Positions 9,171 to 42,444 of a DNA stretch of 44,098 nt are shown here, piece after piece. This stretch comes from a bacterium. Lineage in GTDB: Bacteria > BMS3Abin14. The translations under genes were made by a program, and so were the position numbers. The notes under the pieces are model-generated. The model worked only from the letters and a program-made list of their open reading frames with translations. It did not search any database and was not told where the DNA came from. The stretch is taken from assembly GCA_029210965.1 (NCBI GenBank), contig JARGFZ010000023.1:1-44098 (forward strand), written 5' to 3'. Numbering within the stretch: the stretch's first letter is position 1; the number at the start of each line of letters is the position of its first letter.

Positions 9171-9196
9171 TTGATGGACTTGCAAAAAGTCCATCA
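9171..9196. repeat. dispersed palindrome, GATGGACT family (copy 1)
   Basis: Perfect 9-bp arms GATGGACTT / AAGTCCATC around GCAAA, located 11 bp after the lexA stop. Copies lie at 23231-23254, 23411-23437 and 41977-42003. It could act as an intra-operon attenuator or an mRNA-stability hairpin. Confidence 0.8.
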
Positions 9197-9229
9197 GACA
9201 GTCCCGCCGATGGAGGGACCGGGGTGGGG

Positions 9230-9246
9230 TCACGCCCCAGGCGTGA
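9230..9246. repeat. dispersed palindrome, TCACGCC family (copy 1)
   Basis: TCACGCC, CCA, GGCGTGA: 7-bp perfect arms. Other copies lie at 23303-23318 and 30760-30775. With the preceding GATGGACT hairpin it fills the lexA to DUF6504 spacer. Confidence 0.75.
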
Positions 9247-9289
9247 TGACCGTCCCGCAAAAAACTCGAAGAGACTTTTGGAGAGATGA

Positions 9290-9550
9290 TTGCAAATGAG
9301 CAGCGAGAAATTTCATGAACAGATCACCGTTGGTGTAATTTTCGATCCTGCCGTAAGGCTGCGACCGGCCTGGTTCATCTGGAGTGGACGCAAGGTGAAG
9401 GTCGTGAGAACCAACAGCGTCTGGTCCGAGCGTGAAGGTATCGCAACTCTTTACCATTTTTCCGTCACCGACGGTACCGACATTTTTCACCTCCTCATGA
9501 ACAGCGAAACTCAAACCTGGTATCTGGAAGAGGTAACCCTTTCACAATGA
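9290..9550 (+). CDS. DUF6504-like small protein of the lexA-dinB operon
   Basis: An 86-residue protein resembling the small DUF6504 family often encoded beside DNA polymerase IV/Y-family genes; its function is unknown. Visible features are RPAWFIWSGRKVKV (about 22-35), a Trp-rich beta-type pattern, and YHFSVTDGTDIFHLLMN near the C-terminus, ending with TWYLEEV. It overlaps dinB by ATGA, so the two are translationally coupled. GGAG sits 6 nt before TTG at 9290 and 12 nt before ATG at 9296; either could be the start. Confidence 0.75.
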   Translation: MQMSSEKFHEQITVGVIFDPAVRLRPAWFIWSGRKVKVVRTNSVWSEREGIATLYHFSVTDGTDIFHLLMNSETQTWYLEEVTLSQ

Positions 9551-14866: not shown

Positions 14867-14943
14867 GCTAAAATTTTTCGGAACAGGTTATACTGCCTTC
14901 ATGTAAAAGCGAGCGATATTGAAGAGTTACGATCCAGAGCAGA

Positions 14944-15009
14944 GGAAAGGGAAAACCACGCTTTTCCCTTTCCGAGGAGCAAAAAGCCGATAACGGACTT
15001 TTTGCGACC
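14944..15009. repeat. 66-bp double-hairpin element, copy A
   Basis: Two adjacent stem-loops: 14944-14973 (perfect 12-bp arms GGAAAGGGAAAA / TTTTCCCTTTCC) and 14979-15005 (GCAAAAAGCCG / CGGACTTTTTGC). The reverse complement aligns along its whole length with 41853-41918. It is downstream of glyS and could help end its transcript, although no T-run follows. The rest of 14867-15031 holds no gene. Confidence 0.85.
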
Positions 15010-15031
15010 CTGTCAAATGTGAAATTTGAAA

Positions 15032-23189: not shown

Positions 23190-23437
23190 GGCGGTCACGC
23201 CAAACCTTCGACACGCTCAGTACAGGCTTGGATGGACTTTTTTCCAGGTCCATCAACCTGGAAAACCTCGCAAACTCTTCTTCAAAACATTTTGCGAGGA
23301 GGTCACGCCTTGGCGTGATCCCCCACTTGTCCCGCCTTGGCGGAATCGAGGGAGCGAAGTGAATCCGCCTGGTACCTCCCCCACCCCGGTCCCGTTCATA
23401 CCGGGACCGGTTGATGGACTTGAAAAAAGTCCATCAA
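23190..23437. repeat. composite palindrome cluster
   Basis: This spacer between fusA and the phosphatase gene holds at least five hairpins. They are GATGGACT family at 23231-23254 and 23411-23437, TCACGCC family at 23303-23318, CCGCC-TT-GGCGG at about 23332-23343, and a perfect 9-bp hairpin CCGGTCCCG / CGGGACCGG at 23386-23410. A diverged CCTTCGACACGCTCAG repeat lies at 23205-23220. The last hairpin begins within the fusA stop region, so the cluster may serve as its 3' structure. Confidence 0.8.
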
Positions 23438-41789: not shown

Positions 41790-41806
41790 GGGGTTTCCTT
41801 ATAGAT

Positions 41807-41834
41807 GAGTGTAGAGTGCAAAGTGTAGAGTGCA
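41807..41834. repeat. heptamer array, GAGTGTA family (4 units)
   Basis: Units GAGTGTA, GAGTGCA, AAGTGTA, GAGTGCA, 17 bp upstream of the DUF1858 start. Confidence 0.85.
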
Positions 41835-41852
41835 GATTCCAAACTTGATAAA

Positions 41853-42003
41853 GTCGCAAAAAATCCAATCCGGGACTTTTCGCTCCACGGAAAGGGAAAA
41901 GCGTCGTTTTCCCTTTCCTTACAAATCAATGACTTACAGTGAGAGTCATTGATTTGGGCGCCCCGCGCGGGGCGCATTGATGGACTTTTTGCGAGTCCAT
42001 CAA
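41853..42003. repeat. 151-bp chain of five hairpins (element B plus three palindromes)
   Basis: Element B (41853-41918) is the inverted homologue of 14944-15009, with the same 12-bp GGAAAGGGAAAA hairpin and a second, weaker stem. It is followed by AAATCAATGACT / AGTCATTGATTT (41923-41955, 12-bp perfect arms), a perfect 18-bp GC palindrome (GCGCCCCGC GCGGGGCGC, 41958-41975) and a GATGGACT-family hairpin (41977-42003). It lies in the divergent promoter region of DUF1858 and rpmB. Confidence 0.9.
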
Positions 42004-42152
42004 ACTTAAAACCTCAAACTACAAACCCGGTTTACCTCAGCACTGAACTGGTCCACTTGCATTTTGTCCGTGTTTATGTTAGCAATCCAAGTCTTTTACC
42101 GCAACACAAAAGCCGTGAAGCGGGCCAGACCAAAATCAACCAGGAGGCAAAT

Positions 42153-42344: not shown

Positions 42345-42410
42345 ATCAGGTGTTATGTGCTTGAGACCAGATCCTAGACCCTGAAATCGGGAACGCAGAA
42401 GAAGTCCCAG

Positions 42411-42444
42411 ACACTAGACACTAGACACTAGACACTAGACACTG
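42411..42444. repeat. near-perfect heptamer array ACACTAG x4 plus partial
   Basis: Four identical ACACTAG units and a final ACACTG, 66 bp after the rpmB stop. Same family as 2797-2831. Confidence 0.9.

Follow-up and report, generated by a model that had tools for sequence, protein, structure and literature searches.

Five adjacent hairpins upstream of rpmB are one copy of a 155-bp, MITE-like mobile element

The closest described counterparts of the element treated here are the bacterial MITEs, which, as reviewed in PMC10969869, are shorter than 200 bp, non-coding and intergenic, carry terminal inverted repeats (TIRs) and target duplications, reach high copy number and form stable stem-loops. 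The present element is like them in each of these respects, but differs in its chain of five hairpins, its covarying stems and its variable number of units, and no parent IS was found for it among the families searched. A second point of reference is the BOX element of Streptococcus pneumoniae (PMC3049150), likened here by description, which has fixed end modules and variable inner units, is mobile and is predicted to fold; that lineage is unrelated, however, and in the present case an AANNTT duplication flanks ends that are inverted repeats of each other, and two kinds of unit (C-B and E) expand. Also compared by description, bcr1 of the Bacillus cereus group (PMC6542083, PMC3446304) is likewise lineage-restricted, with mobile-element features and a short recurring target motif, but its lineage and its motif (TTTAT) are different ones; up to about 130 copies of it are known. 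Lastly, the REP/BIME/REPIN repeats with their TnpA-REP transposase (PMC2817692, PMC8266576) share intergenic hairpins and high copy number with the element, whereas TIRs, a target duplication and the lack of any link to a Y1/RAYT gene set it apart. Viewed against these systems it represents a known kind of element but a new family within that kind, MITE-like with BOX-like modularity.

The window, meaning the whole stretch of 44,098 nucleotides that was analysed, contains five successive hairpins at 41853-42003, beside the genes for DUF1858 and rpmB, both confirmed by Pfam. Four are perfect inverted repeats, at 41889-41918 (12-bp arms), 41922-41956 (13-bp), 41958-41975 (9-bp) and 41977-42003 (10-bp), and the leftmost, at 41856-41883, is imperfect. 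Folded as DNA, the 151-nt stretch reaches -43.5 kcal/mol against -19.8 +/- 3.0 for shuffled sequences (z = -7.85), a value equalled by 0 of 200 shuffles. A long imperfect inverted repeat pairs 41834-41867 with 41981-42014 and thereby joins the two ends of a single element, so that hairpins 1 and 5 contain its TIRs. The five hairpins in a row had been reported in a first-pass annotation, and both the inverted-repeat search and the fold bear this out; the extent given there holds for the hairpins, but the element itself begins with the GAT at 41847, 6 bp to the left of that. The same annotation had described a 66-bp part, its element B, as homologous to 14944-15009 in the opposite orientation, and this too is correct (83% over 75 bp). 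The features, with modules lettered from left to right, are as follows.

41841-41846, no strand: left target duplication AAACTT, identical to 42002-42007; a single AAACTT stands at the empty site of the same-genus relative G001
41847-42001, plus strand: whole element, 155 bp by the GAT...ATC convention, in the orientation A-B-D-E-F; near full-length copies number at least 40 (92-99% identity), with abrupt divergence outside the ends
41847-41866, plus strand: left terminal inverted repeat GATAAAGTCGCAAAAAATCC, paired with the right end; TIR core TCGCAAAAAGTC
41856-41883, plus strand: module A, imperfect hairpin holding the left TIR, from the fold; helix 1 of the covariation set, with 3 double-changed pairs
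41889-41918, plus strand: module B, 12-bp-arm hairpin GGAAAGGGAAAA..TTTTCCCTTTCC, from inverted repeat and fold; helix 2
41922-41956, plus strand: module D, 13-bp-arm hairpin CAAATCAATGACT..AGTCATTGATTTG, from inverted repeat and fold; helix 3
41958-41975, plus strand: module E, GC palindrome GCGCCCCGCGCGGGGCGC, from inverted repeat and fold; helix 4
41977-42003, plus strand: module F, tip hairpin TTGATGGACT..AGTCCATCAA, from inverted repeat and fold; its arms switch register together
41982-42001, minus strand: right terminal inverted repeat, GATGGACTCGCAAAAAGTCC on the minus strand, paired with the left end
42002-42007, no strand: right target duplication AAACTT, from the empty site and class-wide duplication statistics
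14943-15016, minus strand: truncated copy (A-B half) belonging to a sister subfamily, 83% identical to the element over 75 bp

The last two bases of module F (42002-42003) fall within the target duplication. In its left TIR the window copy reads AATCC where the majority of copies read AGTCC, and the truncated copy at 14943-15016 matches one in L062 at 98.7% over 76 bp.

The sequence is mobile and recurs throughout the genome. A search of the genome with 41850-42006 gave at least 40 copies covering nearly the whole query at 92-99% identity, among 179 candidates, and the 12-bp TIR core occurs exactly 226 times in the 3.19-Mb genome, compared with 0 for the reversed pattern as control. From about 0.8 Mb of the genome together with whole-genome pattern counts, the copy number is estimated at about 150, and the density at about 45-55 element loci per Mb. 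When copies are aligned with their flanks, similarity breaks off abruptly beyond GAT...ATC, and an exact direct duplication of 6-7 bp adjoins 65% of 63 distinct copies, as against about 5-6% when flanks are re-paired at random (some 5% for 6-7 bp, plus 1.5% for 5 bp); the remaining 35% or so of the copies have no exact duplication. The duplicated motif is AANNTT, within an AT-rich palindromic target of consensus TCAAYYTTGA, and because this target resembles the element's tips the true duplication could be anything from 4 to 7 bp. Copies largely avoid genes, 23% of them overlapping an ORF of at least 100 aa by more than 60 bp as compared with 75% of random 150-bp stretches, while the orientation of neighbouring genes around them shows no clear preference. 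Some copies lie in tandem (L050 1284-1654, L106 4572-4713 and G007:C196:5171-5479), and the tandem neighbours in L050 have a common target, AATGTT, which suggests that insertion can also occur beside the element's own ends.

Evidence for insertion at this particular locus comes from related genomes. Ten relatives yielded the rpmB locus, and in all ten the element is absent upstream of rpmB. For G001, whose flanks align well, the sequence at the site is GTCAAACTTCAGACCTCAAACTACAAACC and has one AAACTT where the window has AAACTT-element-AAACTT; this is the one base-exact empty site, the other nine relatives being too diverged at this level. With TIRs (imperfect ones), a target duplication seen both across the 63 copies and at the empty site, a length of 155 bp, no coding content and a high copy number, the array has the properties by which MITEs are recognised, apart from a parent IS, which the families searched did not yield, and it is very probably the product of one insertion of a non-autonomous mobile element.

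How such an insertion would come about can be proposed from the anatomy. The two imperfect inverted ends (GAT..A.TCGCAAAAA) are putative sites of binding and cleavage by a transposase supplied in trans, and insertion into the palindromic target would duplicate about 6 bp (AANNTT); the interior chain of hairpins gains and loses whole units (C-B, repeats of E, or all of it down to the tips), the ends being kept, and the tips alone may suffice for movement. Inverted ends, a short target duplication and an AT-rich palindromic target are the anatomy of elements moved in trans by a DDE transposase, and we infer that an enzyme of this type is the mover. Genes with matching ends were sought among the DDE_Tnp_1, rve, DDE_Tnp_1_4 and Y1 genes of the phylum and none was found, although IS present in several copies are easily lost from draft assemblies; as candidate parents, the DDE_Tnp_1, rve and DDE_Tnp_1_4 genes were checked together with their flanks, and the ends never match. 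An IS1182-type element in L062 was also considered as parent and rejected, as it simply interrupts a copy of the element. A search of about 0.8 Mb of the genome for long elements bounded by the TIRs gave chance pairings only.

The first-pass annotation had seen in the hairpins a mosaic of mobile palindromic modules comparable to BIMEs built from REP units, and had proposed looking for a TnpA-REP gene elsewhere in the genome. High-copy intergenic hairpins are indeed what such a system would produce, and Y1 transposase genes are present in the genome, but their supposed connection with the element did not materialise: the element stands at the ends of 0 of 14 Y1 loci, and at two of these (L153 and L157) an ordinary copy lies more than 800 bp away. 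Across the phylum Y1 genes and element occur independently, since the G003 genome (100% complete, a single contig) lacks the element although it carries two Y1 genes, while the reverse holds for G009 (98% complete), G001 and G008, which are rich in elements and gave no Y1 match. REP units are single palindromes of 20-40 bp, tagged at one end (GTAG/CGTC) and free of target duplications, and the element has a different form; neither a RAYT gene with these repeats on its flanks nor co-occurrence of RAYT genes and repeats among genomes was observed. Together with the TIRs, the target duplication, the fixed order of a single element and the empty orthologous site, this makes it extremely improbable that a TnpA-REP (RAYT) tyrosine transposase moves these hairpins as REP/BIME units, and the array should no longer be read as a REP mosaic. 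Separately, a RAYT-like Y1 gene lies between GTGGGGTCAGTTCTCGTTATTC repeats at L032 (G000:C12), 60-1280, and is plausibly part of a RAYT/REP system that the genome possesses in its own right.

The mosaic idea was nonetheless partly right, because a MITE-like element with BOX-like modularity is both mobile and modular; what falls away is the notion of independently mobile palindromes, since the hairpins travel together as one TIR-bounded element. Its modules are found elsewhere in the genome in quantity, in fixed combinations as had been asked, the order A-B-D-E-F being constant and the number of units variable. In about 0.8 Mb there are 44 loci (55 per Mb, counted liberally so as to admit A or B hairpins standing alone), and 20 of the 44 have exactly the order A-B-D-E-F of the window; further loci are truncated or have units added in fixed order (ABCBDEEF, CBCBbEEEF, CBDEE). 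Long forms gain C, B and E units, as in a form of about 415 bp at L065 1501-1918, while at the other extreme 50-bp forms consisting solely of the two tips (L203/L078, L105) also bear target duplications, and one of 47 bp is found in L157. End modules thus stay constant while the number of inner units varies, as in BOX; this modularity, real as it is, consists in units gained and lost inside one element.

Two observations concern what else such tips may accompany. At L126 436-582 the tips of the element surround an unrelated repeat (GTCATTGCGAGGAGTGAAACGACGAAGCAATC), suggesting that they may carry other contents. A second hairpin-rich repeat family is present in the window at 23231-23437 and 9171-9290, and in L074, L220, L103, L039 and L125, with units such as CTCGYAAAAAGTCTCTTCGAG, GGTCACGCC..GGCGTGA and paired GATGGACT tip hairpins; an F-like tip hairpin is common to this family and the element, and the family may be a related mobile one.

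The point of real interest is why the stems of the element covary. In 36 diverged copies compensatory change is found in all five helices, and 92.9% of cells are paired; 17 pairs have double changes, amounting to 67 double-changed cells as against 20.1 +/- 4.6 in shuffled and 5-15 in slid controls, while a measure of further pair types is no higher than its shuffles. In hairpin F the register is GACTT/AAGTC in 34 copies, GGACT/AGTCC in 18 and GACTT/AGTCC in 2, and GGACT/AAGTC occurs in none. The loops have fixed polarity, with 0 of 111 B loops and 0 of 69 F loops inverted. Private events comprise 64 double changes from one Watson-Crick pair to another, beside 64 to A.C and 36 to G.U. Mismatch cells number 178 A.C to 46 G.U with two G.U-rich pairs left out, much of the excess being inherited, and on the full pair set private events number 79 to 51 (p = 0.018). 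A working strand is not claimed from the mismatch types.

Such covariation exceeds what a passive MITE needs, and this is to be counted against the MITE-like reading. It fits either selection on a folded strand or correction by template switching. According to the second of these explanations the stems stay paired by mutation, one arm of an imperfect palindrome being corrected from the other during replication, and any palindrome-bearing mobile element would look structurally conserved because template switching keeps correcting its arms. Template switching has been described as both creating and maintaining hairpins (PMC8794818), and the Watson-Crick to Watson-Crick double changes are frequent, as would then be expected; on the other hand, switching from arm to arm is also reported to invert the spacer (PMC8604942), and no B or F loop is inverted here, though arms may be corrected without inversion of loops. 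We regard this as a real but lesser possibility, and as it concerns the hairpins it is compatible with the MITE-like reading.

That the element is instead a functional structured RNA or an exposed single-stranded DNA, whose fold is under selection because it serves mobility or the regulation of neighbouring genes, seems unlikely. The compensatory changes in five of five stems, the conserved loops of fixed polarity and the conservation in eight genera would all suit it; against this, an Rfam search of L062, L065 and L075 finds nothing up to E = 1 and one of the window only a tRNA, a terminator and promoter scan gives no match either, neighbouring genes have no clear orientation preference and the number of units varies freely. 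More speculative still, and rather improbable, is that the chain of hairpins itself takes part in the movement, as a folded single strand or RNA recognised by some unidentified enzyme of the phylum, which if true would explain the covarying stems, the fixed-polarity loops and the failed search for a DDE parent at once. With so many diverged copies and covarying stems, the family offers natural material for finding out whether selection or template-switch correction preserves palindromes in mobile DNA.

The MITE-like family was found only in one small candidate phylum. Within it the element occurs in 11 of 12 species examined and is conserved across 8 genera, the exception being G003, a single contig rated 100% complete; genomes from other families gave 0 of 29. 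Among about 85,000 species genomes the exact 22-base tip pattern occurs in a handful of uncultured MAGs only, the phages and plasmids searched contain no match to the element, and a literature search for the tip sequence brought up unrelated papers only. One viral contig matches hairpin A by chance, as the profile of the element does not match it. A repeat family abundant in most examined species of one candidate phylum and unseen elsewhere is, for that reason, a marker of the lineage, and it also supplies variation between genes.

As to the genes beside this copy, ten related genomes have a conserved block upstream of rpmB, which in the window lies at about 42057-42086 and can be read as TTGCAT-N17-TAGCAA; it is intact and falls outside the element, on its right. 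Because this block is untouched, the insertion probably changes rpmB little and is probably close to neutral there, while the DUF1858-recG side, about 50 bp from the element, may be affected. In the flanking intergenic DNA of the window, at 42407-42443 and 41805-41835, there are short tandem heptamer-like repeats (TAGACAC; GTGTAGAGTGCAAA), and the element often inserts into similar AAACTTCAAAC tracts.
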